Shown here one piece after another: positions 11,559 through 45,411 of a DNA stretch of 64,000 nucleotides; position 1 is the stretch's first letter; each line of letters starts with the position of its first letter. The stretch lies in contig JAFLKN010000016.1 of the NCBI GenBank assembly GCA_019163175.1, positions 62,001-126,000 on the forward strand. The letters run 5' to 3'. Under the pieces are notes generated by a model. That model worked only from the letters and a program-made list of their open reading frames with translations, had not been told where the DNA came from and searched no databases. A program made the position numbers and the translations under genes. The DNA is from Prolixibacteraceae bacterium (GTDB taxonomy: Bacteria; Bacteroidota; Bacteroidia; Bacteroidales; Prolixibacteraceae).

Positions 11559-11570
11559 TATTATTTCGCT

Positions 11571-12281: not shown

Positions 12282-12306
12282 AAAAAAAGCCTTTCGGCTT
12301 TTTTTT
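12282..12306 (-). terminator. Rho-independent terminator after the SSB-tail gene
   Basis: A-run plus AAAGCC, TTTC loop, GGCTTT plus T-run: symmetrical, so it can work in both directions. It begins just after the stop of the gene at 12308. Confidence 0.8.
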
Positions 12307-12307
12307 A

Positions 12308-20217: not shown

Positions 20218-20572
20218 TAGAATTCTTAAAATGTAAAAGGCGTTTCAATTATAATTTAATGCGTTATTGTACATCTTCAATCGACATAACTTTCTAGCTA
20301 AGGCAACAAGGACTTATTGACTTAAGCCCAATCTATTTTTCATTTTGAAAGTCAACACATGTCAGACACTAATCTTCACAACGGTATAAATGCAGATACT
20401 ATTGATCGAGCACCAATTCGGTATTAACTCTTGAACTGAGAGATATACATCAAGCAGTGCATCTATATTCTGAGACCTTTGGTAATTTCTTTTATTGAGC
20501 AAAGATATATCAGTAAAATGTTTTTTTTGACAATTCTAGGAGATGAGATTAAGATTCCAATTTGTATGTATA
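20218..20572. other. Intergenic region between converging gene sets
   Basis: I see no gene, RNA or clear terminator here. It separates the plus-strand radical SAM set from the minus-strand small membrane protein. Confidence 0.5.
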
Positions 20573-20758
20573 TCAAAAAAATATCGAGATTAATGTTTTA
20601 AAAAGAGAAACTATTCCCAAAACAACTATTAAAATGCCTAAAATATTTAAGCCTAGTTTCGTGCGGTTTTTATTCTTCCGAGATCCATTTTGAATCCAAC
20701 CTGGAACTATTTTCCAGATTAATAAACCAACGATTATCATAATTATTGATGATGCCAT
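20573..20758 (-). CDS. Small two-helix membrane protein, 61 residues
   Basis: Two hydrophobic helices (about residues 1-20 and 38-58) flank a basic loop rich in K, R and N. ATG 20758 is preferred over an upstream TTG that would add 15 residues before the first helix. I do not recognise a family. It lies 89 bases downstream of the last gene of the large minus-strand operon and may be its final member or an independent gene. Confidence 0.45.
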   Translation of the reverse strand: MASSIIMIIVGLLIWKIVPGWIQNGSRKNKNRTKLGLNILGILIVVLGIVSLFKTLISIFF

Positions 20759-20847
20759 AATGAATAGATTCTTAAACTGATTACACAATAATTCTATGTC
20801 CAATTATCCGAATTACCACATTGTAATCGATTGGATAAAGAATAAAT

Positions 20848-21786
20848 TCACAATCCAATCATTATTCCCAGGTGCAAATATTGATTGGGATCCAAAATAG
20901 AATGATACGAATAGGTGAATTTAAATTTTAAACTTTTCCCAAGTGATGCAACAATCCCCACTTTTGCAGAAAATCCCAATTCATTTTCCTGAATGAGAGT
21001 CCAATTCGTCATATCACCAGAAATCCTTTTATTATATTGTCCTCCTCCTGCGCTAAGAACGAGAGCCAATCCCCGTTTATGAAATCCCCGTTTGCCTAAA
21101 ATTATATCCAGATAGGCTAAATAGGATTCAATTTCTGAATACGGTTCAGCATTAGGATTCAGCAATGAATTGTATGAATGAGTGAAATATGTACCTTCAA
21201 TTCCGATATGATTATATGCCATATAAAATCCCAGATCCTGAGAGAATTCATCAAAACTTTCAAAGGATGGTGTAAGAAAGTCGGAGGTTGCAGGATATCC
21301 TAAATTCCCCTGTAATCCAATTGAAAAATTATTTTCCTTTTTTGTGATTGACTTTGTATTTGAATTACTGGCAATCTTTTCTTCTTTTGGTGGAGTTTTT
21401 TGATCATAAATACTGTCGATAAGATTATTGTTATTTTGATTATAGAGCCTTTCGATCTTTGTTACAATTACTTCTACTTTTGAAATATCCGGAATATCCT
21501 GTCGGTCTTTATAGAAATCCCAGTATAAGAATTGCATTTTAATTGTTGAAATATTCCTCTTTTCAAATAATGAAAAGGCTGGAATTTTAACATTTTGCTT
21601 GTCATAAAAAAAAGCGTCAATTTCATATACTTCATCACTTTTTGCATCGGAGATAGAATAACTTACGACAATTTTATCATCGGTTGTTTTTTTCCAATCA
21701 TAAACGACTACTCTTTTGAGTGGCTGTTGAGCATAGGTTGATGACAAGCAAAAACAGAAGATAAAAAATATTGAAATTTTTTTCAT
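20848..21786 (-). CDS. Exported protein: shared beta-sandwich domain plus outer-membrane-barrel-like C-terminus
   Basis: The signal peptide (1-20, ending T-Y-A-Q) is followed by an about 95-residue beta domain (L-K-R-V-V-V...D-K-I-V-V-S-Y-S-I). This domain looks like a divergent form of the one in the caspase-island proteins at 45.9, 46.9, 49.8 and 57.7 kb. A linker (about 120-150) leads to a C-terminal part (150-312) with alternating aromatic and small residues, as in small outer-membrane barrels. The protein ends G-I-M-I-G-L. It is the last long gene of the tubulin/actin-type operon and probably its outer-membrane component. The specific function is unknown. Confidence 0.65.
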   Translation of the reverse strand: MKKISIFFIFCFCLSSTYAQQPLKRVVVYDWKKTTDDKIVVSYSISDAKSDEVYEIDAFFYDKQNVKIPAFSLFEKRNISTIKMQFLYWDFYKDRQDIPDISKVEVIVTKIERLYNQNNNNLIDSIYDQKTPPKEEKIASNSNTKSITKKENNFSIGLQGNLGYPATSDFLTPSFESFDEFSQDLGFYMAYNHIGIEGTYFTHSYNSLLNPNAEPYSEIESYLAYLDIILGKRGFHKRGLALVLSAGGGQYNKRISGDMTNWTLIQENELGFSAKVGIVASLGKSLKFKFTYSYHSILDPNQYLHLGIMIGL

Positions 21787-21802
21787 AATAAATTATGTTA
21801 AG

Positions 21803-23116
21803 TTATTTAATCCTATTACCATTTTTAAATACTTGACTCTCTCTCTTTCCATCTTTTCCTGTATAAATGAATTCTCCCTCCCTTTTACCATCTATATAAT
21901 TACCACTTAATGAAGTTCCATCAGGAAATGTTTGAGTTCCATACCCATTTTTAATTGAGCCATTATTATTATTAACCGAATTTGGGTTATTTGTTGTAGA
22001 AGGGTTAGAAGTTCCGATTCTCTGTCCAAACTTAAAAATTCGTGACTCTTTTATTCCATCAGAACTTGTAAATACAAATTCTCCATCTCTTTTTCCATTT
22101 ATGTAAAAACCTGAATAAACAGAATTGTCCTGGAAAATTTCCTTTCCAAGCCCATTTGGCTTCCCATTTTGAATATAACCTTCATATTCAATACCTCCAG
22201 CTAAGTGGAGTTTTCCATAACCATCAACTAAATCTTTGGCTCCTTCACCTTTTACATCAATTGCAGAGCTCACATTATCATTTTTAATAGGAACATTATT
22301 ATCTGGTACATCATCACCTAATATAGTTACAGGATTATCGTCAAATTTGGCACTATCAACTTGTAAATCGGGTTGATTTTGAGTCTCGATTGAATTGTTA
22401 TCAGGTAATATTACTTGTGTATTTGAATTTATATCATTTTTTAATCTATATTTTGCACTTTTCGATCCAACACCATTAGGAAATTGTTTCAAGTAATTTG
22501 CGAAAGCTTCTTTATTATATACCCTTGAAATCTCTCCCCATAATATTTTATCATAATTACGCATCGCTTGAGCGTATCGCGCGCTATTCTTGAATTTTTC
22601 ACAATAAAGATTCCAAATTTTTGAAGATTTAACTACAGATGCAGAATCCCATAAAGCCTTCTCCTGTAAAATTTCAATCTCTGTAATGTGTTTACCATTT
22701 GGAAATTCGGATATATATGCAGAACATATAAAATACGAATTCTTTTTGCTTAAATTATTCCAAAGCATTTCTTCACGAATTTCTCTGGTACCACTATATT
22801 TTAAGGGATTTGAACATTTGTTAATAAGAAATAGAAATAAAAATATTCCTAAAAAACTATATAAATAAAACTTTTTATGAAGTTTAAAAATTGTTACGGA
22901 CTTAGCTAAACCAATAAATAATCCCAATAATGCAAATATTAATGACCACGCTAATAAAGGATGTATCCCTTCTGAAATAGAAAATGAATTATCAATGAAG
23001 AAAAGTGAATTGAAACCTATAAAGATACATACTTCCGCAACCATAGGGAAAGCAGCACAAAGTATTGCTAAAACAATTACAAAAAATGCAAAATAACCTA
23101 GATATTCTTTTTTCAT
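21803..23116 (-). CDS. Multi-pass membrane protein with MORN-type repeats
   Basis: ATG 23116 is chosen instead of a TTG 42 bases upstream. The shorter form begins with a membrane segment and does not overlap the preceding gene. Three hydrophobic helices lie in residues 1-110, then a helical region (110-220), a polar linker (220-290) and MORN-like repeats (about 290-437). The repeats include G-Y-G-K-L-H-L-A-G-G, Y-E-G-Y-I-Q-N-G-K-P-N-G and G-N-Y-I-D-G-K-R-E-G-E-F. MORN repeats mediate lipid or protein contacts. It lies 5 bases after the gene at 23122-25317. Confidence 0.8.
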   Translation of the reverse strand: MKKEYLGYFAFFVIVLAILCAAFPMVAEVCIFIGFNSLFFIDNSFSISEGIHPLLAWSLIFALLGLFIGLAKSVTIFKLHKKFYLYSFLGIFLFLFLINKCSNPLKYSGTREIREEMLWNNLSKKNSYFICSAYISEFPNGKHITEIEILQEKALWDSASVVKSSKIWNLYCEKFKNSARYAQAMRNYDKILWGEISRVYNKEAFANYLKQFPNGVGSKSAKYRLKNDINSNTQVILPDNNSIETQNQPDLQVDSAKFDDNPVTILGDDVPDNNVPIKNDNVSSAIDVKGEGAKDLVDGYGKLHLAGGIEYEGYIQNGKPNGLGKEIFQDNSVYSGFYINGKRDGEFVFTSSDGIKESRIFKFGQRIGTSNPSTTNNPNSVNNNNGSIKNGYGTQTFPDGTSLSGNYIDGKREGEFIYTGKDGKRESQVFKNGNRIK

Positions 23117-23121
23117 TTTCT

Positions 23122-25317
23122 TTATTTGAGAGTTAATGTTCGTTTGATCGGTTTCCAAAAAATAGAAATGATTAACATTAATAGAATAAATATTAGTAAG
23201 ATAATTGGGAAATAATAAAAAGTTGGTTTTTCTTGCCAGAATATATCTGCGGGATGCAAGTAATAGTTATATTTTGTATTTAACCAATTATGAAATCCAA
23301 AAGCATATATAATTCCTCTCAATATCAATCCAAACAAACCAAATAGTATTGAATATTTAACTAACTCGTTTATAAATGCTTTTTTGGGAAAAACTATTCT
23401 AAACGAAATAGGGATAACAATTTCTTGCTTGTTTGTAGTAGTAATGAGAATATCAGTGCTGTAATCTACGCCTTTCAGTAATTCTTTTGACTCTATTTTA
23501 AGATCAACTTTAATATTTGATCTCTTCTCAGCCACGTTCAAACTGAAATTTTTTGAGGATAAAGCAACTCCTTCTATCGGCTTCGATAAGGTCAAATTTC
23601 CACTGATAAATCCTCGTGTTTTATTACTTAGAACTAATTCAGAAACTACGCTTTCACCACTTTGAATTTGTGGGTATGAAAAAGCTTTCACATTTAATTC
23701 AAGGGAAGGATCTGGAAGCTTTTCATTGAGTAAATGTAAAAAATACTCTAGCCCAAGGTCCTTTTTTTCTGAATACTCATCTTTGACTTTATCCCATTTT
23801 CCCACAATGGATATGTTCCCAGTGGTTCTAAGCCAAATAAGAATAGAAGAATTATAAAGTTCATCTTTCCCTGTATTCCAGCAATCTTTATTTTTTTCAA
23901 TCTCATTACATAATTCGATGGGTGATTTAACTAGGATGTTCCCAGAAAAACGAAATGGTAGTTCTGGATTAAAGGTGTATAACAGTTCAAGAAAGGCTAA
24001 ATCAGGATTTTCTGCAGTATCTTTTATCCTTATAAGTTTTTGGTAATTTTCTTTTTGTGTTTCCTGCAACCATATCTCAATGTTACCTTGTTTGAAATGT
24101 TCTTTGCCAAGTTTCAATTCGTTAAAGAAAGCTGAAGTGAGAGATTTTAAATCAGAATATTTCTCTTTTTCAAACCGATAAGGGAGTTTTGGGTTAAGCA
24201 GATAAATTGTACGAAGATATTTTAGATATTCGGGCTCCTTAGATTCGCAAATATCACTAATTTTTAGAGCTTTGGGTTGACTGAAAACTCCAACTGGATT
24301 AGGTAACAATCCCTTTTTTATTAAGATTCTTGCTTGTTCTTCGTTATCAAAAAGAATCGCTCCTATTTCCTCAATACTCTCCGCAAATATGTCAGAAAAT
24401 ATTTCGATTGCGATTGGAGGTGGTTGATTTTTGATTTTATTTTCGGTCATCCATGTGAAAGATGTTATTTTTTCAATGTTACTTTCACTAAAATTCTCAT
24501 TTACACGAACCCAACCTTTGCCTTTCTCTCTTTTTACAGGTACTAATTTACTTTGTGTTAAAAAAACAAAAATAAAATTTACAATTTCTTCTTCAGAAAT
24601 ATCAATTTCATTTTTCATTTCAAAAAGAATTTCAAAATCAGTATCTGACAAATCCTCATCACGTGTCTGATTTTCAAATATCTTTAAAAGAGTTTTCTTT
24701 GCAGAATCTAATCTCTTCCTTTCTAATTTCTTATAATATTCGTCTATATTTTCAAAGGAAGAAAGCTCTTTATAGGCATTGTTAAGTTTAGTAATGCAAT
24801 TTTCAAGATTTTTTTTTGTGAATCTATTTTCGATTGACTCACTTACTTGTCCGCTACCAGACTCCCATAAAGCTATGCGTCCCTTCCAAAATTCACAGAT
24901 TAAGCTGTAATTGTTCTGGATAACCTCAGGAGTAATTAATTTTATTTCTATCGGATCAAGATAAAGTATTTCAAATAAATTCTCCGATTCAATAATTTGC
25001 CAATCTCCATCGCTATCCCCAAAATTAATGGGAAGCAATTTTAATCCTTTTTCTTTTGTCGATTTTAGAATTCGTTCTTTTCTGGTTGTTTTTGCTAGCT
25101 GGGGTTGTTCCTTACTTTCTGAAATTGTAGGTTTTTTATTATTTCCATCCCCTGGTATTTTCCCTTCTGTATTTCCACTAATATAATGGTTACCGGATAT
25201 TTTTCCGTGTTGACCATCATTGTTTGCAGTGATTCCAGCTATTTTACCCTCTGAGCCTAAATTGCTGTTTGTATTCCCAGCTATTTTTCCCGTTTCGTCT
25301 TCAATTTCTTCGGCCAT
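23122..25317 (-). CDS. Membrane protein with possible HPD-less J-like domain and Ig-like ectodomain
   Basis: The 731 residues begin with a repeat region (10-60) in which G-K-I-A-G, G-K-I-S-G and G-K-I-P-G recur. Residues about 115-210 resemble a J domain in layout (L-F-E-I-L-Y-L-D-P, a second helix, then L-N-N-A-Y-K-E-L-S-S...Y-Y-K-K-L-E-R) but lack HPD. An acidic helical part follows, then a beta-sandwich (about 545-655), and two transmembrane helices close the protein. The next gene upstream codes for an Hsp70-like protein, which makes a co-chaperone role plausible. The J-like reading is an inference. Confidence 0.6.
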   Translation of the reverse strand: MAEEIEDETGKIAGNTNSNLGSEGKIAGITANNDGQHGKISGNHYISGNTEGKIPGDGNNKKPTISESKEQPQLAKTTRKERILKSTKEKGLKLLPINFGDSDGDWQIIESENLFEILYLDPIEIKLITPEVIQNNYSLICEFWKGRIALWESGSGQVSESIENRFTKKNLENCITKLNNAYKELSSFENIDEYYKKLERKRLDSAKKTLLKIFENQTRDEDLSDTDFEILFEMKNEIDISEEEIVNFIFVFLTQSKLVPVKREKGKGWVRVNENFSESNIEKITSFTWMTENKIKNQPPPIAIEIFSDIFAESIEEIGAILFDNEEQARILIKKGLLPNPVGVFSQPKALKISDICESKEPEYLKYLRTIYLLNPKLPYRFEKEKYSDLKSLTSAFFNELKLGKEHFKQGNIEIWLQETQKENYQKLIRIKDTAENPDLAFLELLYTFNPELPFRFSGNILVKSPIELCNEIEKNKDCWNTGKDELYNSSILIWLRTTGNISIVGKWDKVKDEYSEKKDLGLEYFLHLLNEKLPDPSLELNVKAFSYPQIQSGESVVSELVLSNKTRGFISGNLTLSKPIEGVALSSKNFSLNVAEKRSNIKVDLKIESKELLKGVDYSTDILITTTNKQEIVIPISFRIVFPKKAFINELVKYSILFGLFGLILRGIIYAFGFHNWLNTKYNYYLHPADIFWQEKPTFYYFPIILLIFILLMLIISIFWKPIKRTLTLK

Positions 25318-25321
25318 ATTC

Positions 25322-28027
25322 TTAGCTTAAAATGGTAATATTTTGAATAATATCTTTTAGGTAATCTGGGAAGTCACTACTCCCTTTGATGTTTGTTTCT
25401 TTTATTCCTTCGGGTTGATAATCAGCAAGAACCCGAAGGACACCATTTTTATTAATTTCTAAAATAATGGTAGCATATTCTCCGGTATTTTCTAACTCAA
25501 GCTTTCCTAATTTATCACATCCAATTAGTTCTTTTGATTCCCCTTCATAAATTTCAAGATTAGCAAAGGGATCAGTTTTATATCTTTTTTGAGCTCTGGC
25601 AGGCAATACTGAATTTTTGTAAATTAAATGATCGATATATTTTAGTCCTTGATTATTTTCTAATTTAATCCCAATACTTTTAGATACTACATCTTCAACA
25701 TGTTCCTTTTTTTGCCCATAAATTGCTGCACCAAATGCAATAGCTGTATCATAGTTAAAACTATCCCGATGTGTTTTAATTTTCTTATTTGATAATTTCT
25801 CCAGCATTTCAGGTATCATGGGCATCCTGCATGATCCCCCTGCTAAAACTATTTCGTCAAGATCCTGCCATGACATTTTACACATATTCAAAACATCATT
25901 ACATTTTGAAATACATTTTTCAAGTAATTTTTCACATCTTTCATCAAAGTAAAAAGGTTTATTCAAATCAGAATTATCCCGATTTATTGGTGCTGAGCGA
26001 AACAATTTTATATCGATGTCAAATCCATTAGCAGAGATGTAAACAACGGTTTCTTCTGCAACTGATAATTCTTTCTTAGCTTGAATTGCTGATTTCTGTA
26101 GATCAAATATTTGTTCTTCAGGTATTTCAGTTCCAGTTTCTATCTTAAATTTCTCTTTTAAATAGTCTATTATTACATTATCCCAATTCTTGCCTCCGAG
26201 ATTACCTATCCCATCAGAAGCAATTACTTTAAATAAGCCTCCATCAACGATCTCAAGGATAGTAACATCCAAAGTTCCTCCACCAAGATCAAAGACAAGG
26301 AATTTTTTATTCTCAGACAAAGAAATTCCGTATGTTAATGATGCAGCAGTGGGTTCATTTATAATATTAACTACATTTAATCCAGCCAACTCACCAGCAT
26401 ATATAGTGGCTTTTTTCTGATCATCGCCAAAATTTGCAGGAACGGTAATAATAGCATCAATTATAAAATCAATTTCTTTAATTGATTCTTCAATTATTTT
26501 ATTCTTTTTAAAATATTGCCAGGCATCTCTTTTTAGTTTTCTCAACAAAATGGCAGATAGACCTATAGCTCCAAATTTTATTCCGGAGATATTATAAGGT
26601 GCTGCTTTTATTGGCTTGCCAACAACCCCTTCAATTGGTCTACCCATGTCCAGTTTAAAGAACTCGAAGATTGGATCTAATGCTGTTATTTTTTTATTGT
26701 TAGCCGCTTCTCCAACATAACATGTTTTTCCATCATACCAAATTACTGAAGGTGTAATTTCTCGACCTCTATTATCTGGAACAACTTGTGGCACACCATT
26801 ATTAGTATATGCTACACAAGAAAACGTTGTACCTAAATCTATTCCAATAAGCAATCTATTTGGATCTCTTTCATAATTAGTTAATGGAGAAATATTTTCT
26901 GGTTTTGAAGTCGGGTCTTGAACGGTTTGCTTTATAATAATTTTTAAAGGTAATTTGTGCGATTGAATTATTTTTGAAAAAATTAATTTCATTGAGTCAT
27001 TAAAGTGTTCAATCTCAACACCGATTACATCAGAATAAATACTTCGCAACTTTCTTAATAAATAAGAAGTATTTATTTGGCTGCTGCCAAGAATAATAGT
27101 AACATTTTCAACCCGAATGCCATTTGTATCTAGTATGGCATTAATTTCATGATTTATAATACTCTCATTCGGAACAAACATTAATCGATCATCAATATTT
27201 CTTCTTTTAACTTCAAAATTGTACACTTTCCCATCGGTAAGAGTCACATTTCCTTTGATAATAGGGGTATTATTGGCTAATAATTCAGATGAATATGAAA
27301 GAAGAGACGCAATTTCCGCTTCTTTATTTATTGAAAGATATGAGTTAATTGCAAGAACATCTTCAACAATCAGTTCTGCTAAGATTTTTACTCTTGGATC
27401 AGCACCTTGACCTTCTAATTTTGAATACCCAATTCGTAAGCCATTTAAATTTTCATATAGCTCAAGATACAATGTATCGTCAATCCCATTTAACATTAGA
27501 ATTGACTTATTTTTAGTCAAGATTCCTTTAACGCACAGAACTTCAAATAAAGCCTGATTAAAATCAATTCTTGCAATATTATCATAGCCAGCTTCTGTAA
27601 AGATCCTTTCAATCAATGCTTTTTCCTTGTCCTCTATATCGGATTCAAATAAAAAACGAAGAGGAAAATCATTTCTAAAAGATTCTATAGAATCGCTTTT
27701 ATATAAAATGGTATTAATGAAGTGAGAAAGGTATTGTTCAATACCATAATAGAGTAATTGCTTGAATGGCTTAGAGATGCCAGAAATAATGAAATGTTTA
27801 CTTGGATCTTTTATGTTTTCAAAGTAATTTCCAAATGCATTTGGGTCATTTGAAAAATATTTCTCCCTTGCACTATTACCAAAAATATAAACATTTCCAA
27901 AAACGTAAAAGTATAATGGAACCTCATTTGATTCATTTATAATCAATGGAGCATAAGAGCTTCCTTCTGATTGATACCAGAATGAAGCCTTCTGTTTTGA
28001 AATTTTGACTAATACACAGTAGTTCAT
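25322..28027 (-). CDS. Double actin-fold protein: degenerate domain plus Hsp70 with truncated substrate domain
   Basis: The C-terminal half (from about 393) is a canonical Hsp70 ATPase: G-I-D397-L-G-T-T, N-E-P-T-A-A-S, D-L-G-G-G-T-L-D and L-A-G-G-S-C-R-M-P. It continues into a beta-type substrate domain, but the protein stops after about 130 more residues, without the helical lid. The N-terminal 385 residues follow a similar plan in worn form, including L-G-S-S-Q-I-N-T-S in place of the adenosine motif, and probably are a second, inactive actin-fold domain. It is 4 bases from the J-like gene. Classical DnaK is about 640 residues, so this is not the housekeeping copy. Confidence 0.88.
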   Translation of the reverse strand: MNYCVLVKISKQKASFWYQSEGSSYAPLIINESNEVPLYFYVFGNVYIFGNSAREKYFSNDPNAFGNYFENIKDPSKHFIISGISKPFKQLLYYGIEQYLSHFINTILYKSDSIESFRNDFPLRFLFESDIEDKEKALIERIFTEAGYDNIARIDFNQALFEVLCVKGILTKNKSILMLNGIDDTLYLELYENLNGLRIGYSKLEGQGADPRVKILAELIVEDVLAINSYLSINKEAEIASLLSYSSELLANNTPIIKGNVTLTDGKVYNFEVKRRNIDDRLMFVPNESIINHEINAILDTNGIRVENVTIILGSSQINTSYLLRKLRSIYSDVIGVEIEHFNDSMKLIFSKIIQSHKLPLKIIIKQTVQDPTSKPENISPLTNYERDPNRLLIGIDLGTTFSCVAYTNNGVPQVVPDNRGREITPSVIWYDGKTCYVGEAANNKKITALDPIFEFFKLDMGRPIEGVVGKPIKAAPYNISGIKFGAIGLSAILLRKLKRDAWQYFKKNKIIEESIKEIDFIIDAIITVPANFGDDQKKATIYAGELAGLNVVNIINEPTAASLTYGISLSENKKFLVFDLGGGTLDVTILEIVDGGLFKVIASDGIGNLGGKNWDNVIIDYLKEKFKIETGTEIPEEQIFDLQKSAIQAKKELSVAEETVVYISANGFDIDIKLFRSAPINRDNSDLNKPFYFDERCEKLLEKCISKCNDVLNMCKMSWQDLDEIVLAGGSCRMPMIPEMLEKLSNKKIKTHRDSFNYDTAIAFGAAIYGQKKEHVEDVVSKSIGIKLENNQGLKYIDHLIYKNSVLPARAQKRYKTDPFANLEIYEGESKELIGCDKLGKLELENTGEYATIILEINKNGVLRVLADYQPEGIKETNIKGSSDFPDYLKDIIQNITILS

Positions 28028-28033
28028 ATATAT

Positions 28034-31000
28034 TTATGAATTTTTTATGGCTTTCATTAAGTGTTTTTCAAAAAACTTCATGCCTTCTAAAATTATTATT
28101 GGGGCCACATAATCAAATTTCTTTTGTTCATTCTTTCTTTTTCTAGCTTCAGCATATTCTATATCTCCTTTGATAAAATTTTCGATATTCATATCTTGAA
28201 AACCTGTCATGAAATCAGTTTGACTCATTTTTAAACCAAACATTGATGAAGACACTTTATAAAACAAATCAGCAAAGTCCATAAATTTGGGACAAGGAGC
28301 CTTCCCTGGAGGAGGTAAACAAATAAATTGGTCTCCTAAACACTCCATCATTTCAGGTGTGATCGAATTTACCGATTCTAAATATTTGAATTCTCCGGCT
28401 TTTGTTACGACACAAAAATGCTCTTCACCTAAAACTTCAATAGCATTTTTGTTTTTCGGTACCAATATTTTTGTTTGATTCGTTGGAATGGCCAAACCTT
28501 TAGAAACCTCATATTTTACATCAGCATTATTTTCTGCCTTTTGACTATTAATATCAATGATTTTTAGTGGATTTATAGAAATTGGCGAAATTGTAGCTCT
28601 AGCAACAGATTCCCCGCCAATCCCTCTTAAAAACATCTGTGTATAGTAATCATTCGCTGCTTTAGAATTGACCGCATTAAACCAATCAAATATCCTTGCT
28701 CCTTTACCCGCAAACGCAATTTTAATTTTTGGAGCAAGAGCTTTAACAGCAGGCGGAGCATCTTCCGATCTTATGATTTCCGATCTGAGCTTATGGGTTA
28801 ACTGACCGGCATAATACATAATCATACCGGTTACATATAAGTTAACACTCATCATTTCCTTACAATCAGCAGCAATTAATTTGTAAAACTCATCAAAATC
28901 GGCAGCATCTAATCTATCAACAACTTGTTCGAAGAAATATGGTGCCGTATTTTCATTATATTTATTGTTGCCTGTATTTAGACCTTGTATTTTAAATTTT
29001 TTCTTTTCGCACATTTTCAATAGGACTGATTTGAAATATGGCGAAAATTTTGTGGCTTCTGCAACACGCTGTGCAGCAAAACGGATTGAGTTTTGCTTGA
29101 TCATGGCTTTTCCTATATTTCCTTCAGCATCTGCCATTTGGCATAATGCAGTAATGTCGGTAGTACTCCCTCCAATATCAAAACATAATATTAATTCACC
29201 AGGATTAATAGTGTAACCTCCATTAGGCCTGGTCAAATAATTTGCTATAGCACAGGCTTCTGTTAAGGACTCATCGTCAGCTAATTGTTTAAAATCGAAG
29301 CGAATAGGTCCTGTTTCAGTCTCTATTTCAATTGCTAGTTTTTTGTTTTTAGATGGATTAGAATCCCCCCAGCCGGGAGTTTCGGATTCCTTGGGAAGTT
29401 CCTGTGTCGTACCCCAAGTGCTTACTTCGTTACTACTACTTCCCCAACCTGAATCAGAATCTGGAAAAGAATTGTTATCATTGACCCAAGAGTTACCTGA
29501 AGAAATATCACCAATATCATTTAGATCTGAAGGTGGGTATATTATTATCGTTTTTTGACTTACAATTGGCGAAACATCTTTAAGAGAGTCCCAAATGCCT
29601 TGATAAGAGGTTAATAGATCTTTACTCATGGAAGAGGGATAAGACCATTTTAGTGATTTAGGAACGTGATTCTCAATGAATAGTTGAGCATATACATGCA
29701 AAAGCAATGAACTGAGATATGCTGCCTTGTGGCTTTTATCAATTAGTTGATTAGACCATTTCATATTGTACACCAATTCAGCTTTCCCAACTCTTGTATA
29801 GCCTAATGTATAGCGATTGTTTAGGGCATTTTCGATAGGCAAGTTTTTTTCAAAACAAGGGAAACCACCCTTAACAGCTTGTGCTGCTAAGGAATCAGGT
29901 GAAATGTTATTTTCATTAACCATCCTTCTTGAATCGTGTATTGTTAATACCGACTTAATTGAATTGGAAATTATTTTGTCATTTTGAAAAAAGAAAATCT
30001 CATCCTCAACGGCGGGTCTTTCATCGTTATTCTTTTTATCATCTGAAAACAATGAAACTCTTCTATTCTCAAGTACTATTTTATCACTAATAGCATTATT
30101 ACCATCTGAATAATATGCAATAGATGAATTTGTACTTCCAAAATCAAAGCCTAGCTTTGCATCGATAAGAGGAATTGTAACTGAAAGCATATTATGAGGT
30201 AATGTTTGGCTATGACACGAACCATCATATCTAATAATTCCAAAACCACAATTTATGCCATTATATGCAAACTTAATTCCTTTAAATGGCTGATTGCTTT
30301 CGTATATTTCATATTTATATGCATTATCTGCGACTGCGGAGTTAGAATTTATATGTAATTGCACTTTTATATTATTATGCTTATCAGAAATTGTAATTGC
30401 TTTTCCCTTTTCAGCCAGATATATTGGAATACCCGATTCATCTAAAATAATGCGGAAAAATTCATCATTTACATCACCAATAAATGGAGTTGCCTGAAAT
30501 TTTACATCGTTATGAGGAATTTCAGAATACATGAAATAACGGTTCCATTGTTTTGAAATAAAATTAGGCCATAATAAAATATCTTTCCCTTTAATTGAAT
30601 CAGAATTGATATTATAAATTAGTTGTTTCGTTATAGGAAGGCTCCCATGTAGAGTATATAAATTTAATGTAACTATTAACTTTTCTCCATCTTTATTATT
30701 TGGATCATAAATAGCAGAAAGTCTCGATCTTACGTTTGAATTATCATTCAATCCAACCAAAGCATCAAGTTGTGACCCAAATATATTTAAAGCTATGGGA
30801 GTCAGTGGAAGTGTAAAATAAGTATAGCTATTAGGTTGACCAACCGTTTCGGCTTCTAATAATAGAATTGGCTTTGATCTTAAAAATTCCCTTTTTTCAG
30901 CATTAGCAAACCTAATTTGTGCAACTTCAGTGGTAACAGGTAATAATAGGTCTTTTGGATCGAATCGGATACTACCTTCAAGACTTGAATCACTAGATAT

Positions 31001-31939
31001 TTGACCATCCACCCCATATAATTCCGTAGAGTAATTGAATAATAAGCTATATGGATATTGAAATAATGAACCTACTTCAGGTGGGGTTTGATTTTCTAAT
31101 CTTGGATATCTTTTTGCCTCTTGATAATTAACCATCTCAGCCATCCAATTTTGAATACAGCTAGAAATATTACCATAGTTTTTAGGTCTTAGAGAATCAC
31201 TTAATCCCTCAAACTGTTGTTCAAACTTATTTATATTATTAAGAATATGTTTTGCATAGCCATAAATCTTTGCAACGTCGTCAGGCTTTAGATCAGCATT
31301 TATATCTATAAATGGATCAATAAATTTGCCATTATTAACAAAAGGAAGTTTCTCTTTGATACAATAAGATACTGATGTGAATAGGAAACTATCAGGTGAT
31401 GTCCCACCAATAACTTCATTATTAAATTTAATGACATTAATTGCAGGAATTTGTTCTCCTTCAGGTAAGGTGAGATTGCACCATAGTTTTTTCCGTTCAA
31501 ATAATACATTACCAAAAGCACCTATTGGTTCATAAATATTTGAAGTTTCAAAAACATTCAAACCATCAGAATATGTTAGTTGTACTGGAACAATCTCCAG
31601 ATTCGCATAATTTAATGCTATACAACTGATTAAACCCTTCCATTCATTGATTAAAGCTTTATAGAAAAGCATGAGTCCTGTTGCTTCCGCTTTAAGATCT
31701 GTAACATTATCAAGTGCATTCTTAAACATATCAGCCCTGGCAAAAACAGTAGGCATACCCGATACGATTGAACCAATATCAACTGACGTTTGACCATCCT
31801 TATCAATTGAAATTTCCGGAATAATAATATTTTTAGTAAAAACCTCAAGTTGAGGAATTTTATCCCACTCGAATTTGACTCCACTAGGTTCATCTTTTGA
31901 TTGAACTTTAATTGCAAGTGCTTTAATTATTTCTGGCAT
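28034..31939 (-). CDS. Giant actin/Hsp70-fold ATPase, 1301 residues
   Basis: Two phosphate-binding motifs of the actin superfamily are visible: G-F-D599-F-G-S-T-N-S-S and C-F-D921-I-G-G-S-T-T-D. An adenosine-type motif (A-F-A-G-K-G-A-R-I-F) follows near 1072. Between the first two lies a low-complexity insert rich in W, S, G, D and N (about 810-865). The first 590 residues are mostly beta-rich and unassigned, with no signal peptide or membrane helix. I know no named family with this layout. It lies between the tubulin-like and Hsp70-like genes, 6 bases from the latter. Confidence 0.8.
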   Translation of the reverse strand: MPEIIKALAIKVQSKDEPSGVKFEWDKIPQLEVFTKNIIIPEISIDKDGQTSVDIGSIVSGMPTVFARADMFKNALDNVTDLKAEATGLMLFYKALINEWKGLISCIALNYANLEIVPVQLTYSDGLNVFETSNIYEPIGAFGNVLFERKKLWCNLTLPEGEQIPAINVIKFNNEVIGGTSPDSFLFTSVSYCIKEKLPFVNNGKFIDPFIDINADLKPDDVAKIYGYAKHILNNINKFEQQFEGLSDSLRPKNYGNISSCIQNWMAEMVNYQEAKRYPRLENQTPPEVGSLFQYPYSLLFNYSTELYGVDGQISSDSSLEGSIRFDPKDLLLPVTTEVAQIRFANAEKREFLRSKPILLLEAETVGQPNSYTYFTLPLTPIALNIFGSQLDALVGLNDNSNVRSRLSAIYDPNNKDGEKLIVTLNLYTLHGSLPITKQLIYNINSDSIKGKDILLWPNFISKQWNRYFMYSEIPHNDVKFQATPFIGDVNDEFFRIILDESGIPIYLAEKGKAITISDKHNNIKVQLHINSNSAVADNAYKYEIYESNQPFKGIKFAYNGINCGFGIIRYDGSCHSQTLPHNMLSVTIPLIDAKLGFDFGSTNSSIAYYSDGNNAISDKIVLENRRVSLFSDDKKNNDERPAVEDEIFFFQNDKIISNSIKSVLTIHDSRRMVNENNISPDSLAAQAVKGGFPCFEKNLPIENALNNRYTLGYTRVGKAELVYNMKWSNQLIDKSHKAAYLSSLLLHVYAQLFIENHVPKSLKWSYPSSMSKDLLTSYQGIWDSLKDVSPIVSQKTIIIYPPSDLNDIGDISSGNSWVNDNNSFPDSDSGWGSSSNEVSTWGTTQELPKESETPGWGDSNPSKNKKLAIEIETETGPIRFDFKQLADDESLTEACAIANYLTRPNGGYTINPGELILCFDIGGSTTDITALCQMADAEGNIGKAMIKQNSIRFAAQRVAEATKFSPYFKSVLLKMCEKKKFKIQGLNTGNNKYNENTAPYFFEQVVDRLDAADFDEFYKLIAADCKEMMSVNLYVTGMIMYYAGQLTHKLRSEIIRSEDAPPAVKALAPKIKIAFAGKGARIFDWFNAVNSKAANDYYTQMFLRGIGGESVARATISPISINPLKIIDINSQKAENNADVKYEVSKGLAIPTNQTKILVPKNKNAIEVLGEEHFCVVTKAGEFKYLESVNSITPEMMECLGDQFICLPPPGKAPCPKFMDFADLFYKVSSSMFGLKMSQTDFMTGFQDMNIENFIKGDIEYAEARKRKNEQKKFDYVAPIIILEGMKFFEKHLMKAIKNS

Positions 31940-31950
31940 CTTTATGGTTA

Positions 31951-33576
31951 TTAAAAATTTTGAGAATTGGTAATTGCATTATAGATATGAGCCATGAATT
32001 TTTCTTTGGTTGTATTAACCTTCTGTTCATTATTTGGACTAGATTCTATAAGCCTTTTTACAAATTTATCATATCCTCCCGATGGCCAATGGTACTTTTT
32101 ATCCAAAAATAATGCACCAACATCAAGTTTTTTTAATTCTGCCTGAGTATCAGGGAAGGCTTTGCTGTCAAACATGAATGTTCCAGGGGAAACAGTATTT
32201 CTTATTTGATACAACCATCCCGGTACAAATTTACCTTTGTCAAATGTGTATGCGAATTCCATAAAATATTTGTTTATGTCATTGCATTCTTCATCTGTAA
32301 TCTCACTATACTGATATATCTTTTGAAGCTCACATCTTTTGATAAATCCTTTAATACCAGTGTCTCCTGAAGCTGCACCATTTGTGGTTAATGCAATATG
32401 GGCTAATGAAAAAAATGCGCCTAGCCTATTTGCAAAGGATTCACCAGCTTTATTCTCATTGCCCACAAAATCATTAAATGAAAAGTTAAAAGAATTATCC
32501 TTAAACTCTACAGCCTTATATAAATATTCCGCATCACCTAATGAATTATCCATTCCTTTTTTTCGTGTAAAAAAGTCATAAGCAGCGCAGGCACATAAAA
32601 GCTCAGTAATATGACATGGATTTTTTTGATTTGCACCTCCAGTATCTACTTTTTCTTTTCCTTCATCATCTATTTTCTTACTGGTAATTGGCCAACCAAC
32701 ATGATAAAGCGTTTTGTAAAACCTTTTTACTGTAGAATCGCCCTGATAAAACTGTAGGGCCGCCTGACTATTTATTGGAAAGAAAGAAGGGTCGGCAATT
32801 ATACTATCATGCCTTGAAGAAGTATCTCTATTGTTTGGCTTTTTAAAAGTAAAATACTCAGTTAATAAGGTAGCTCCAAATTTTGCTCTTGTAAAATCAA
32901 TATCCTCCTTATTGCCTGATCTAATTTTAACAAAGTCTTGAAGGGCTTTAGGAATAACGGGGATAGACGAAGCGCCTGTTCCTCCAAATACGGATCCCAA
33001 AATAAAAATTCTGGCATCTCCGCCTGCCTGCACCAATTTTGCTATAAAAGCTGCAAGCTCTTTTTCTTCAGGTTGAATATTTAAGCCCTTTACAATGTTA
33101 CGAGCAGCTTCAATTATTCCATGATACATAAGCATAGATCCCAAATGGGTCTGGGCTCTATATCCATGAGCTAAATTAAACTCCTGAACAGAATTTGTAT
33201 CCAAAAATAAATCAGATACCAATTTATTTTTCATCTGTTGTTCAGGGGTTCCCTTAGTAATTTGCGATAAATTTTTATAATTTTCTCTCCCTGCGCCTGA
33301 ATAATTGGTCCAGTATCTATGCAAGTTAAGTTTGGCAGAAAAGAAAGTATTGGTGTTTGGTGTACCCCCTTCTGTTGTGCCATAAGTTTTGATCCTATTA
33401 TACAACCTGATCAATTCTTCAACTTTTGCTTTATTACCATTGGTTTGGTCAGTATCTAAAGTTAGAATTTCAATTTCCTGATTATCAAACATACCAATAC
33501 CACATAAGTGCGTAAAAGACTCAAGGCAGCGCATGCCTGTACCACCAATGGCTATTATAAATAGTTTATCGCTCAT
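31951..33576 (-). CDS. Tubulin/FtsZ-like GTPase
   Basis: This 541-residue protein has the N-terminal Rossmann start with G11-G-T-G-M and the tubulin signature loop as F-G-G-T-G-A-S (residues 197-203), corresponding to the G-G-G-T-G-T/S-G loop of FtsZ. The family resembles the Pfam group of bacterial tubulin-like proteins found in conflict and signalling gene sets, not the cell-division FtsZ. No C-terminal FtsZ tail is present. It lies 11 bases before the giant actin-fold gene. Filament formation is possible but not shown by sequence. Confidence 0.85.
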   Translation of the reverse strand: MSDKLFIIAIGGTGMRCLESFTHLCGIGMFDNQEIEILTLDTDQTNGNKAKVEELIRLYNRIKTYGTTEGGTPNTNTFFSAKLNLHRYWTNYSGAGRENYKNLSQITKGTPEQQMKNKLVSDLFLDTNSVQEFNLAHGYRAQTHLGSMLMYHGIIEAARNIVKGLNIQPEEKELAAFIAKLVQAGGDARIFILGSVFGGTGASSIPVIPKALQDFVKIRSGNKEDIDFTRAKFGATLLTEYFTFKKPNNRDTSSRHDSIIADPSFFPINSQAALQFYQGDSTVKRFYKTLYHVGWPITSKKIDDEGKEKVDTGGANQKNPCHITELLCACAAYDFFTRKKGMDNSLGDAEYLYKAVEFKDNSFNFSFNDFVGNENKAGESFANRLGAFFSLAHIALTTNGAASGDTGIKGFIKRCELQKIYQYSEITDEECNDINKYFMEFAYTFDKGKFVPGWLYQIRNTVSPGTFMFDSKAFPDTQAELKKLDVGALFLDKKYHWPSGGYDKFVKRLIESSPNNEQKVNTTKEKFMAHIYNAITNSQNF

Positions 33577-33613
33577 AATTCATGTATTATTATTAAATAA
33601 AAAACACCAAGGT

Positions 33614-33958
33614 TTAAAACCAATTCCCCAATTTGCCATTTTTAAAAACCTTGCTCAGTAGGAATCCTAAAACAATATATAATACAAAAGCAACTCCGGT
33701 TCCGATGCTAAGTGCAGTTGTGTAATTTTCACGTACGCTTGGAACTTTAATGCCGGGTCTGACGACAAGAAATCCAATTAAGAAAATAACAATAGGACAT
33801 ATCACAGCAAAAATCCAAAACCACATTTTACGTTTGCCTGGATCTTTTGGATAACTACCTCCTTCGAACTTAATGAGATTTGAAATAACTGCAGCTATAA
33901 GCAGAAATACTAAAGCTATCACGATTGCCATAATGTAGGCAGAAATGGATTGATTCAT
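33614..33958 (-). CDS. Small three-helix membrane protein, 114 residues
   Basis: Three hydrophobic helices (about 8-27, 47-68 and 85-105) are separated by short loops rich in G, K and P (S-Y-P-K-D-P-G-K-R-K). I do not recognise the family. It lies between the lipoprotein gene and the tubulin-like gene with short gaps on both sides and probably anchors the complex in the inner membrane. Confidence 0.75.
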   Translation of the reverse strand: MNQSISAYIMAIVIALVFLLIAAVISNLIKFEGGSYPKDPGKRKMWFWIFAVICPIVIFLIGFLVVRPGIKVPSVRENYTTALSIGTGVAFVLYIVLGFLLSKVFKNGKLGNWF

Positions 33959-33995
33959 TTTGTATAAGTTTAAAAGTTAGAGTTTATTTTTATAT

Positions 33996-35552
33996 TTATT
34001 GGTCTGCAGTTTTGATAAAATAGCTATATATAGCTTTCCCCTGTGGATTAATTTCTTTAAGGGTATTTCTAATTGCTTCTGATAAAGATTCATTTCTTTT
34101 ATCTCTAACAGTTGTGGATTCCCAACTAAAAAGATCATTCAGTTTTTCAAAATTGGGATTGCATTCAGAAATAACAATATCGACTCTAAGAAGTCCACCC
34201 GGGTTTGTGATTTGGGATCCATCAAAATTAGGATGATACTTTGTTCCTATTTCAATATTATTTTTTGACTCTTTAAAACCATTTTTGTACAATTCAGAAT
34301 TCAACTCAAAAACCTCGTTTAAAGGAGTTGAAGCTAAAGGTTTATATTCCCATGCAGTCAATAAATTGCCTTTTGCATCATAACAACTCAATGCAATTGG
34401 ATCATCCTCTGTCTCTGCAAAAATTGAATTCCCATTGGAATCTTTTGCCAAGGTTGGCTTATGGCTCTTTGCTTCTTGTGCTTTAGCAAAAAACAGAAAA
34501 TCATCGGTAACGTTCGAAACTTTAACTTCTAAACCTTTAAGCTGAAAAACATCATCATTACTAGCATTAATATATAGTTTTCTAAAGAAATCAGTAAAAG
34601 GTTTGGGAACTCCAGATTCCATCAATGATTTTGAATCTTTAGAAATATCACCCCAAGGCTGCAGAAAAGCATAAAACTCAAAATTTTTATTGTTTTTTTT
34701 CAACCCATTAATATATTGATTTCCATCTAGAACACAAAGTATATCTTCTCCTTGATCGTCATAATAATTTCCTCCTTCTTTTTCTGATCTATAATCATTA
34801 GTTATAGTGTAAAAATTAGTTGATAGAGAAAAGGTTTCGTATTTATATCCTCTGTCTTTGAGTGCATAATTTATATCGCCTAGTAGTTTTTTTTCTACTC
34901 CATAGTTAAAAACGATGAAATAAAGACGTTTCTCAACATCTGGTCCATACGTAGTTTTCTCGTTATAATTTGTTATGAAAAAATTAATCGAGTTTCCCTT
35001 GGATAACCAGTCAATAAAATATCCCTTGGCGAAATTTTCAAATTGTTCTTTCTTGTCTTCTGTGTATTCTTCAAAGTCTGTTACTAGCAAGGCATCGCTA
35101 TTCGAACTTGTAATTAGTTTAACGGCATCTTCAATAGGAGCAATCATCTGCGAAGCATAAGACTGAGGATCGGTAACTTTATTGAATAACTGGGTGGTAG
35201 GAAAATCGAGTGGATAAATCATATCTCGGCCTAAACCAAACCATTCAATATCAGGACCCGTCAATTTTTGAGTTATTTTTTCTAACATGGCAGCATTTCC
35301 ATTCCCTCCAGCATATGCCTGCACCAATCCATTTGAAAAGTCAATATAAACTTTTGGTGCTTGTGCGGGTAAATTTCCGGCTTGAGGTTGACCACCATCA
35401 AAATATGCTTCAACTCTTTTATTTAAGTTGTTATCAAAAGCATTAAAGCCTGCCTGATCAAAAGGATCCCCACTATTAGTGCTACAGCTTCCTAATAAAG
35501 ATGAGATTAGTACAAAAACAAAAAGATTTAAGAAAGTAGAATGTTTTTTCAT
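33996..35552 (-). CDS. Lipoprotein with possible degenerate von Willebrand A-like fold
   Basis: This 518-residue protein has a lipoprotein signal (M-K-K-H-S-T..., lipobox L-L-G-S-C at about 19-23). A Y-I-D-F-S-N-G segment near 70 and L-L-V-T-D-F-E-E-Y near 155 lie where the first and second metal-ligand positions of a vWA-type domain would be, though the D-x-S-x-S motif is not exact. The remaining two thirds are alpha/beta and beta regions without assignment. It is anchored in the envelope and starts 9 bases after the preceding gene. The vWA-like reading is weak. Confidence 0.7.
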   Translation of the reverse strand: MKKHSTFLNLFVFVLISSLLGSCSTNSGDPFDQAGFNAFDNNLNKRVEAYFDGGQPQAGNLPAQAPKVYIDFSNGLVQAYAGGNGNAAMLEKITQKLTGPDIEWFGLGRDMIYPLDFPTTQLFNKVTDPQSYASQMIAPIEDAVKLITSSNSDALLVTDFEEYTEDKKEQFENFAKGYFIDWLSKGNSINFFITNYNEKTTYGPDVEKRLYFIVFNYGVEKKLLGDINYALKDRGYKYETFSLSTNFYTITNDYRSEKEGGNYYDDQGEDILCVLDGNQYINGLKKNNKNFEFYAFLQPWGDISKDSKSLMESGVPKPFTDFFRKLYINASNDDVFQLKGLEVKVSNVTDDFLFFAKAQEAKSHKPTLAKDSNGNSIFAETEDDPIALSCYDAKGNLLTAWEYKPLASTPLNEVFELNSELYKNGFKESKNNIEIGTKYHPNFDGSQITNPGGLLRVDIVISECNPNFEKLNDLFSWESTTVRDKRNESLSEAIRNTLKEINPQGKAIYSYFIKTADQ

Positions 35553-35561
35553 ATTGTTGTG

Positions 35562-35972
35562 TTATTTGTTTATGGTTTCAACGGTACTATCAAGAACCTC
35601 TTTTGCCTGATTAATCATTTCTTTTGCCTGATCGAATAACTCATTAGCACCTTTTTTTACTTTAAGTGCAGTATATGTTCCCTTAAGTTTGCCGATTGTT
35701 AGCATTTCTTCTGTTGTCAATTCAGGTTTAAATTTCTCATATAGTTCACCAGTATATTTAGTATATTGTTTGTCAACTCGAATCCAGTCAGATTCAGAAT
35801 AATTGGCATAATTTTCTTTGACATCTTTAATAAATGAATTAAAATCATGGATGTAATTGTTTTTTGTATAAAACACTGAACAACCAATCAATAATAAAAT
35901 GAAGGTAAGGCCGAAAAACAAATTAAGAATGCTATTAAAGGAAAGTCCTCTTTTGAAAAGAAAAATAGTCAT
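35562..35972 (-). CDS. Membrane-anchored helical protein (DUF6565-like), first gene of the operon
   Basis: This 136-residue protein has a hydrophobic anchor (about 14-35, with an L-L-I-G-C lipobox-like end) and a helical domain (about 40-110) in which N-Y-S-E-S-D-W-I-R-V-D-K-Q-Y resembles the N-Y-T-x-x-D-W pattern of DUF6565 proteins of Bacteroidota. The family name is from memory and not certain. It heads the nine-gene minus-strand operon. Its start codon is 60 bases downstream of the perfect palindrome at 36032-36088. Confidence 0.65.
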   Translation of the reverse strand: MTIFLFKRGLSFNSILNLFFGLTFILLLIGCSVFYTKNNYIHDFNSFIKDVKENYANYSESDWIRVDKQYTKYTGELYEKFKPELTTEEMLTIGKLKGTYTALKVKKGANELFDQAKEMINQAKEVLDSTVETINK

Positions 35973-36031
35973 AAATAATATATTTTTTATTGGTTACAAT
36001 TTAGGTTAAATTTTAATAGGATTGTTCAATG

Positions 36032-36088
36032 AGTTTAATGAATATTATTAATTTAGAATTATTCTAAATTAATAATATTCATTAAACT
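36032..36088. repeat. Perfect 57-bp palindrome upstream of the tubulin/actin-type operon
   Basis: Two 28-base arms (36032-36059 and 36061-36088) are exact reverse complements around a single T at 36060. The sequence is nearly all A and T. It ends 60 bases upstream of the operon's first ATG. It could be a strong operator, a cruciform site or, as RNA, a hairpin separating the operon from the phage side. Confidence 0.9.
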
Positions 36089-39157: not shown

Positions 39158-39161
39158 AGGT

Positions 39162-39755: not shown

Positions 39756-40036
39756 TTTCGGGCCTCCTTCTGATAATTTAACATCGCTTGCTGCGATGGG
39801 CTGCTGCCATTCAGAGCAGATTGTTTGATGGCTTTCCGCAAAGCAACTTCAGCAGTCATCCATCCACGTAAATAAGCCGATACCAGTGGATTGGCAGTAT
39901 CTTTGAAAATGACCGCAGCCACAAAGCCCTCAGTTTTATCTTCATTAAATTCCAGGTTGACTGCAATATCTTCCGGAGCGAAAAACAGTTCAGCCATTTC
40001 TTCCACCTCCTTAAGTTGTTCCTCGCTGAAACTCAT
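39752..40036 (-). CDS. Phage-associated hypothetical protein, 94 residues
   Basis: ATG 40036 is preferred over a TTG two codons upstream. The product is acidic at the N-terminus (S-F-S-E-E-Q-L-K-E-V-E-E-M-A-E), with a small alpha/beta layout and an alanine-rich helix. It overlaps the preceding PLD-like gene by 26 bases and the following packaging gene by 4 bases, showing a tightly packed phage operon. I do not recognise a named family. Confidence 0.7.
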   Translation of the reverse strand: MSFSEEQLKEVEEMAELFFAPEDIAVNLEFNEDKTEGFVAAVIFKDTANPLVSAYLRGWMTAEVALRKAIKQSALNGSSPSQQAMLNYQKEARK

Positions 40037-45370: not shown

Positions 45371-45411
45371 AGACAAAAATTTCGTTTTACCCTACATCAA
45401 GGTGATCGAAA

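Follow-up and report, generated by a model that had tools for sequence, protein, structure and literature searches.

Makarova and Koonin (2010; PMC2875224), in the part of their paper covered here, describe operons in which the tubulin-superfamily protein FtsZl1 is encoded with vWA, GTPase, kinase and OmpA genes, and they propose a role in membrane remodelling. The GAP1-N2 systems of Kaur et al. (2020; PMC7159879), as set out in the portion used here, include a tubulin/vWA theme and a two-HSP70/DnaJ-FNIII theme; the two do not overlap, and the tubulin theme is restricted to Firmicutes and Actinobacteria. In Bacteroidota, TssR, a vWA-domain lipoprotein, belongs to the trans-envelope complex TssNQOPR of the type VI secretion system T6SS-iii (PMC10781749, main text in part), while a tubulin-family phylogeny sets the Tubulin_2 proteins aside (PMC9871819, likewise in part). 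Here we analyse a nine-gene operon (20848-35972) in a 64,000-nucleotide stretch of contig JAFLKN010000016.1, positions 62,001 to 126,000, from a Prolixibacteraceae bacterium whose genome comprises 5.9 Mb in 74 contigs; we call this whole stretch the window. The operon contains a conserved gene unit, made up of a probable vWA lipoprotein, a protein with three transmembrane (TM) helices (3-TM protein), a tubulin-like protein and a giant actin-fold protein, which is found in Bacteroidota and on cyanobacterial plasmids together with a lineage-specific adaptor and a swappable module.

As an earlier note on this DNA had it, the nine consecutive minus-strand genes are separated by short gaps of -37 to 37 nt (9, 37, 37, 11, 6, 4, -37 and 16 nt in order of transcription; Table 1). 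To examine their neighbourhood in other genomes, tubulin relatives were collected with a five-sequence profile, taking one genome per species, and the best 80 of 116 were kept; one locus (L091) has no called tubulin open reading frame (ORF), and counts refer to the other 79 and only to loci with enough contig. All 80 loci are from Bacteroidota by title, a placement that we presume where the title gives only a genus or family. The giant gene stands immediately after the tubulin gene in 74 of 78 relatives (all but L070, L088, L090 and L092), so that the search for adjacent homologues of 28034-31939 and 31951-33576 suggested by the note came out in favour of the pair. Directly upstream of the tubulin gene lies that of the 3-TM protein (63/77, or 64/77 over a wider span), the lipoprotein is found no more than two ORFs upstream (56/70; 57/70), and a homologue of the N-terminal half of the window's Hsp70-type protein (HSPN), lacking the Hsp70 C-terminal half, follows right after the giant (51/61; 52/61). 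Locus L014, whose giant is 55% identical, has lipoprotein, TM protein, tubulin, giant and HSPN genes followed by those for TerD and OmpA; tubulin and giant also stand together in L007, L008 and L015. Some of the misses reflect divergence rather than absence, because L077, which was scored as lacking the lipoprotein, has one with a YVDMS motif. The full set that the note took as a unit did not hold up: the Hsp70 half and the J-like, MORN and outer-membrane-type genes of the window were not found beside any other core, and no homologue of the last three was labelled beside another core among the relatives' loci. The conserved unit is both smaller and wider than that set, consisting of a vWA-type lipoprotein, a TM protein, a tubulin and a giant actin-fold protein, usually with HSPN.

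The same arrangement recurs, wholly or in part, in 16 more distant loci, ten from 395 genomes of the phylum and six from a tblastn search of plasmids. The plasmid matches comprise four from Picosynechococcus/Synechococcus, one from Gloeothece and one 1.77-Mb Prevotella record, which places five of the 16 on cyanobacterial plasmids. All 16 have the tubulin, and 15 have a giant next to it, 13 recognised by profile (that of L131 being cut by the contig end) and two (L134, L137) by size and both phosphate motifs. A protein of 130-173 aa with at least three predicted TM helices is encoded upstream of the tubulin in 14 of the 16 (not in L138 or L142), one further ORF intervening in L133. All 15 loci scored encode, close to the TM protein, a protein of 420-609 aa with a motif resembling a metal ion-dependent adhesion site (MIDAS), [DE]xSx[SG]M; L140, a near-duplicate of L139, was left out of this scoring, and the patterns are permissive. 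The motif has Asp, and the full DxSxS, in five of the 15 (DGSGSM in L127, L128 and L139, DASGSM in L141, DRSLSM in L132), while Glu replaces Asp in the other ten and makes metal binding uncertain. By pattern, 11 of the 16 distant vWA-type proteins have a lipobox; the gene in L127 is on the opposite strand. Given how permissive the motif patterns are, more weight falls on comparison of profiles, in which close and distant lipoproteins matched with a probability of 94.1 (E 1.2e-7, 180 columns) and close and distant giants (13 sequences) with a probability of 100 (E 4.4e-47, 882 columns), against P values of 0.16-0.7 for six cross-family controls. At L138 (9249-10487) the tubulin gene is broken into two ORFs and no giant follows, which represents either a decayed copy or an assembly error.

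Table 1. Features of the operon and its upstream flank, in order of transcription within the operon (coordinates of the window)
Feature	Coordinates	Strand	Basis
Nine-gene operon	20848-35972	minus	all nine ORFs present
DUF6565 protein, 136 aa; one N-terminal TM/lipoprotein-like signal	35562..35972	minus	PF20203, 72.5 bits (cut-off 24.5)
Lipoprotein, 518 aa; probable vWA domain with MIDAS-like D71, S73, T158, D159, E161	33996..35552	minus	AlphaFold2 model and family alignment
Membrane protein, 114 aa; three predicted TM helices	33614..33958	minus	hydropathy
Predicted tubulin-like GTPase, 541 aa; FGGTGAS signature, Tubulin_2-related	31951..33576	minus	family Pfam matches and motif
Giant protein, 1301 aa; about 590 N-terminal residues before the first phosphate motif, then predicted actin/Hsp70-fold ATPase domain and C-terminal region	28034..31939	minus	model of the L093 homologue
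HSPN, residues 1-385 (N-terminal half) of the Hsp70-type protein; Hsp70-like domain, divergent and probably inactive	26873..28027	minus	hhalign
C-terminal half of the Hsp70-type protein; true Hsp70, covering positions 2-499 of 599	25322..26872	minus	PF00012, 294 bits
J-like protein, 731 aa; N-terminal GKI(A/S/P)G repeats (by eye), C-terminal TM segments	23122..25317	minus	sequence
MORN membrane protein, 451 aa; three predicted TM segments, TTG start as called	21803..23158	minus	PF02493, 34.3 bits (cut-off 22.5)
Probably secreted protein, 312 aa; possible outer-membrane beta-barrel	20848..21786	minus	PF13505, 12.7 bits (under cut-off, 28.7)
Perfect 28-nt inverted repeat, 1-nt spacer, AT-rich, about 60 nt upstream of the first gene	36032..36088		sequence

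The giant had been described as an actin-fold ATPase, and the fold is borne out by a structure model made for its L093 homologue (pLDDT 84.9). Residues ~554-990 of that protein adopt an actin/Hsp70 fold in the model, with VIA Z scores of 12.3 to MreB and MamK and 12.2 to DnaK and a Foldseek E of 3.6e-9; the 50 VIA matches listed for the domain span Z 10.9-12.3 at 10-16% identity. Two phosphate motifs, DFG at 599 and D-[VI]-GGST at 921, are invariant in 55 of 55 sequences, and modelled fold and motifs together place the giant in the actin/Hsp70 ATPase superfamily. A search of PDB sequences with the giant profile gave weak Hsp70 matches (best E 0.0067), and Hsp70 homologues were also the best named matches among viral structures. 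The ATPase domain would share its fold with the actins MreB, FtsA and MamK and with DnaK; the giant differs from them in adding an N-terminal region of ~550 residues (in L093), which is unmatched, though barely tested, and a further C-terminal region. A Trp-Gly-rich low-complexity insert lies at ~815-885 of the protein, between the two phosphate motifs; it is also present in L014 and is short or absent in L007, L008 and L015. SrfB is a giant protein, and SrfABC was considered on grounds of size and dropped, the window giant having no SrfB Pfam match at E<=1.

Membership of the neighbouring protein in the tubulin superfamily, as proposed in the note, is supported at the level of the family: 47 of 49 aligned members match Tubulin_2 and 47 match Tubulin in Pfam at E<=0.1 (best 2.8e-7), and the GGTG motif is invariant in 49/49. 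The window protein on its own scores 16.8 bits against a Tubulin_2 cut-off of 27, and no match to PF13809 was found in its own genome at E<=0.001. A comparison of the family with two canonical Tubulin_2 proteins by hhalign gave a weak match around the GGTG motif (probability 18.7, P 0.0013). With this score and a length of 541 aa, canonical Tubulin_2 membership was rejected.

The note's lipoprotein call is confirmed by a lipoprotein-type N-terminus in which Cys 23 is kept in 45/49 family members. Its AlphaFold2 model has a pLDDT of 91.7, and all 50 VIA matches listed are vWA/I-domain proteins (a content that we presume for the many whose titles name a complex alone), with Z scores of 5.8-7.1 that all lie below 8 and could, by themselves, reflect a common arrangement. 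Among the Foldseek matches listed, 39 of 50 bear vWA domains and 11 do not, and all are weak (E 2.2e-3 and up); the window protein has no Pfam vWA match. The MIDAS-like residues are strongly conserved in the close family (D71 49/49, S73 48/49, T158 46/49, D159 49/49, E161 49/49), in a site that is incomplete, mostly DxSx[GC] with the second Ser replaced by Gly or Cys, which leaves metal binding uncertain here as well. Because the conserved D71-x-S73, T158-D159 and E161 and the DGSGSM of distant homologues agree with the modelled fold, we take the assignment to go beyond a shared arrangement, and the lipoprotein most likely carries a vWA domain. Of 65 relatives with enough contig, 9 encode a homologue of the DUF6565 protein no more than six ORFs upstream of the tubulin.

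The Hsp70-type protein had been called a double Hsp70. Its C-terminal half is a true one; the kinship of HSPN is weak. A collinear hhalign match of HSPN to Hsp70 has P 6.1e-4 over 199 columns at a probability of 28.5, compared with P 0.75 and 0.22 for the controls; BLAST shows no similarity of HSPN to DnaK, and, among the 25 of 40 families listed, the HSP70 Pfam family has no match in 41 HSPN homologues. A double Hsp70 remains the likely description of 25322-28027 to judge from sequence. HSPN has no Pfam family of its own, with TPR matches in up to 9 of the 41 homologues, and its tail varies, being proline-rich, TPR or, by eye, FNIII-like in relatives and a true Hsp70 in the window only; the latter had no other match among 1363 ORFs of 86 sources. 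Repeated DDFF motifs are present in the tails of the HSPN proteins at L065:15064-17199 and L093:15021-17675. Run against PDB sequences, the profiles of the lipoprotein, the tubulin and HSPN found no clear relative, the matches including TPR tails, an uncharacterised protein (E 1.4e-4) and a weak DnaK match (E 0.43, residues 30-123 to 34-129).

Downstream of this core the genes change from one lineage to the next. TerD homologues of the L014 type (173.5 bits to Pfam TerD) follow in 34 of 61 relatives, often with OmpA (one form of the module runs TerD-TerD-OmpA), which is itself downstream in 24 of 58; a TerC homologue is found in 10 of the 80 loci (185.7 bits to Pfam TerC in L018; one weak, L016, E 1.8e-11). 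In six of the 80 (L046, L048, L056, L057, L061, L078) DO-GTPase2 and GAP1-N2 genes take the same operon position; Pfam, run on both genes in L046 and L048 but for L057 on that of GAP1, put the GTPase over the cut-off in L046 and L048 and GAP1-N2 only in L048. The module of L077 has a PP2C gene and, by eye, an adjoining kinase-like gene. The distant loci have coiled-coil-like TM proteins, MotA_ExbB and OmpA/MotB-like proteins, for which the MotA_ExbB cut-off of 22.9 bits is passed in L136 (23.2), narrowly missed in L132 (22.3) and L133 (21.2) and not approached in L134 (14.8) or L130 (no match); L130 OmpA (25.2 vs 27.2 bits) and L134 MotB_plug (17.9 vs 24 bits) are also under their cut-offs. 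A family of ~190-aa proteins stands after HSPN in 11 further loci (L093:17713-18294, L065:17241-17819 and nine others) and looks TerD-like by eye; none of the ten scanned matches TerD in Pfam, and the family is perhaps a divergent TerD or perhaps a different fold.

In the window, this position is taken by the true Hsp70 half, the J-like TM protein, the MORN TM protein and the possible barrel. The MORN repeats named in the note are well supported, and the MORN gene overlaps the J-like gene by 37 nt. The J domain suggested there found no support: the 731-aa protein has no J or FNIII match in Pfam, whether searched whole or in three pieces, and a possible beta-rich stretch before the TM segments is seen by eye only. 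Beyond the source genome, no full-length match to it was found among 296 genomes of the phylum or 344 of the order; each set gave one partial match, that in the order being of 151 residues and that in the phylum lying in L099, where residues 346-523 resemble part of a 992-aa kinase-like protein. The L099 cluster (3630-12439) contains, by eye, PP2C-, FHA/zinc-ribbon- and triple CbbX-like AAA genes beside that protein. Short N-terminal repeats are visible both in the J-like protein (GKI[ASP]G) and in the OmpA-type protein at L014:5986-7155 (FNLSK, echoing TerD N-termini), and are perhaps binding motifs.

Among the closest known systems are the FtsZl1/vWA operons, where a divergent tubulin-superfamily protein is likewise encoded beside vWA, OmpA and TM proteins in the part of PMC2875224 covered. 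A Tubulin_2 locus, L106, has the order vWA-like, small TM, Tubulin_2, as in the lipoprotein, TM protein and tubulin of the window, with vWA matches of 14.8 and 21.1 bits that are under the cut-off of 27, and in another, L105, the gene after Tubulin_2 encodes a membrane protein that is MORN-like (14.4 vs 22.5 bits). The window differs in that its tubulin-like protein, judged by length, lacks a long coiled-coil or helical tail (541 aa, compared with 797 aa in L106 and 1035 aa in L105), and an OmpA-family protein is missing from the operon itself. As to a vWA protein in the operon, fold and motif agree, with Z <8 and no Pfam match. With the GAP1-N2 systems the window has in common an HSP70 component, over the cut-off, and a tubulin, by family evidence, whereas DO-GTPase and GAP1 are unmatched among its proteins and stand beside the core in the six relatives mentioned. 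The earlier note's remark that proposed conflict systems include genes of the tubulin and Hsp70 types agrees with Kaur et al. as far as covered; there the themes are kept apart, whereas the operons described here join tubulin, vWA-type and Hsp70-like parts in Bacteroidota and add the giant. A giant actin-like partner is mentioned in neither paper as far as covered. The Ter systems are represented by TerD, OmpA and sometimes TerC, the commonest downstream module of close relatives, with no TerD-domain protein among the ten window proteins. TssR offers a precedent in topology; the likeness is one of layout only, no Tss genes were recognised in the operon, the word "tubulin" is absent from the main text of PMC10781749 as covered, and identity with T6SS-iii was dropped. 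Neither the full set, for which the note knew of no described system, nor the tubulin-giant pair was found described in the open-access literature, most subscription papers and supplements being beyond the reach of the search. In our best reading, the machine proposed below is kin to the FtsZl1/vWA and GAP1-N2 systems.

On sequence features and models we think the chances somewhat better than even that the operon encodes a trans-envelope, nucleoside triphosphate-driven machine for sensing and remodelling, probably for use under stress or in conflict. The vWA lipoprotein would sit on the periplasmic side, its MIDAS-like site binding a ligand that is a peptide or belongs to the envelope, and the 3-TM protein would relay the state of the lipoprotein to the cytoplasm. 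There the tubulin-like protein may use GTP to assemble on the membrane, and its closest partner, the giant ATPase, may remodel the assembly with ATP. The divergent Hsp70-like domain (HSPN) would couple this core to a working module, which in relatives could be TerD/OmpA, DO-GTPase/GAP1 or a MotA/MotB-like unit and in the window would be a membrane chaperone module of true Hsp70, membrane-anchored J-like protein, MORN membrane protein and possible beta-barrel. Because of the Ter, GAP1 and OmpA/MotB links, envelope stress or conflict is favoured over housekeeping, and a response to envelope damage, toxins or phage is the likely use.

Several observations weigh against such a machine. Its function is deduced from parts, models and linkage, the localisation of the parts from sequence features, and nucleotide hydrolysis is predicted. 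Only tubulin and giant are recognised in L007, L008, L062-L064 and L094, and HSPN was not recognised in the 16 distant loci. Between close and distant loci, the small TM proteins compare at P 0.0016 over 29 columns, which does not establish homology. Pairwise distances are closely correlated between core proteins, which speaks for co-inheritance (for giant and tubulin, ACT-TUB, r=0.98 in 44 loci, whereas 500 label shuffles reached 0.157 at best); the value partly reflects species history, however, and comes without a housekeeping control. The window's own module was found in no other locus examined, no PADLOC family was matched by the ten window proteins at E<=1, and none of the phage records matched the tubulin.

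A strict anti-phage or anti-toxin conflict system in the sense of Kaur et al., with the core as an NTP-dependent threshold switch and the module as a killing or arresting effector, is a possibility that we consider less likely than not. The DO-GTPase2 and GAP1-N2 genes at the same position, TerD in more than half of the relatives, the swappable modules, the sporadic distribution and the tubulin/vWA and two-HSP70 themes in the part of PMC7159879 covered are all in its favour; however, in the window module Pfam showed neither a nuclease nor a protease nor another recognisable killing effector, the PADLOC result is negative, and 14 of the 80 loci carry Pedobacter titles, which resembles a stable set more than one of fast turnover. 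We consider it unlikely that the operon is at root a Ter-type system for chemical or metal stress, in which TerD, TerC and OmpA would be the ancestral business end, the core a scaffold and the window a case where a chaperone module was swapped in. The frequency of TerD after the core and the TerC homologues fit this view, but the window operon has no TerD, 27 of 61 relatives lack a confirmed one, and in the distant loci the giant is followed by genes for MotA/OmpA-like or coiled-coil TM proteins, although TerD was not specially sought there. The probabilities of the machine, conflict and Ter readings overlap.

Segregation is one of the processes in which plasmid-borne tubulins and actins can take part. 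A cytoskeleton with a housekeeping role, whether in shape, division, motility or the segregation of DNA, would accord with the two superfamilies and with the copies on cyanobacterial plasmids; it is nonetheless improbable, given how the genes are distributed and that an envelope setting is indicated by the vWA-type lipoprotein and by OmpA and MotA-like neighbours. A search with the giant found matches in 0 of 22 congeners (some of them incomplete) and in 3 of 61 relatives including the source genome. In the 395 phylum genomes there were five at E<=0.001, three of them long (G000, the source genome, G244 and G344) and two short and marginal (G454, G410), and the tubulin profile found 13, namely those three and ten distant ones. 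The operon is therefore accessory. That the genes are chance neighbours in an accessory island, as the last three window genes and the true Hsp70 half, which were not found beside any other core, might suggest, is very improbable overall: the short gaps and a core order that recurs across families, in many genera and two phyla, show more than chance linkage and already refute it for the core, though not for 20848-25317.

The operon is low in GC, at 0.303-0.347 in the eight 2-kb bins of 20001-36000, compared with 0.325-0.447 in the other 24 bins. Promoter and terminator scans gave results no different from those of shuffled sequence; the inverted repeat at 36032-36088 is possibly a terminator or an operator. 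Just upstream of the operon, at 37451-39755, lie terminase-like large and small genes recognised by eye, without a Pfam match over the cut-off, and the highest GC of the window, 0.447, is in the bin 38001-40000 of this region. A phage origin of the operon was rejected, since the tubulin has no match in phage records and the terminase-like gene, at 37451, does not belong to the operon; one IMG/VR contig (L096) matched the tubulin. Farther along, 44040-62389 is a minus-strand gene run that contains, mostly by eye, a sigma-factor-like gene, secreted repeat proteins and two caspase-like proteins, and could be a second conflict-type cluster. One caspase-type gene (47865-49559) has Peptidase_C14 and CARDB domains and the other (58460-60169) is similar by eye; near each is one of an identical pair of 215-aa secreted proteins (50725-51372 and 60293-60940), which are about 9.6 kb apart.

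If tubulin and actin relatives are indeed partnered in one operon whose order is kept in two phyla, this would be a bacterial example of a combined tubulin/actin machine outside cell division. We put forward, tentatively, that it represents a new class present in at least two phyla, with an obligate pair of tubulin GTPase and giant actin ATPase, an envelope vWA sensor and interchangeable modules (TerD, GTPase/GAP1, a MotA/MotB-like ion unit or a set of membrane Hsp70 chaperones), that is, a modular envelope-defence platform. The core provides a shared frame for three separate predictions, those of FtsZl1/vWA remodelling, GAP1-N2 conflict and Ter stress, and opens them to experiment in carriers that can be cultured, for example Pedobacter and Chitinophaga. 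A modular cytoskeletal platform for envelope defence could, if true, help explain the link of Ter proteins to phage and colicin resistance.

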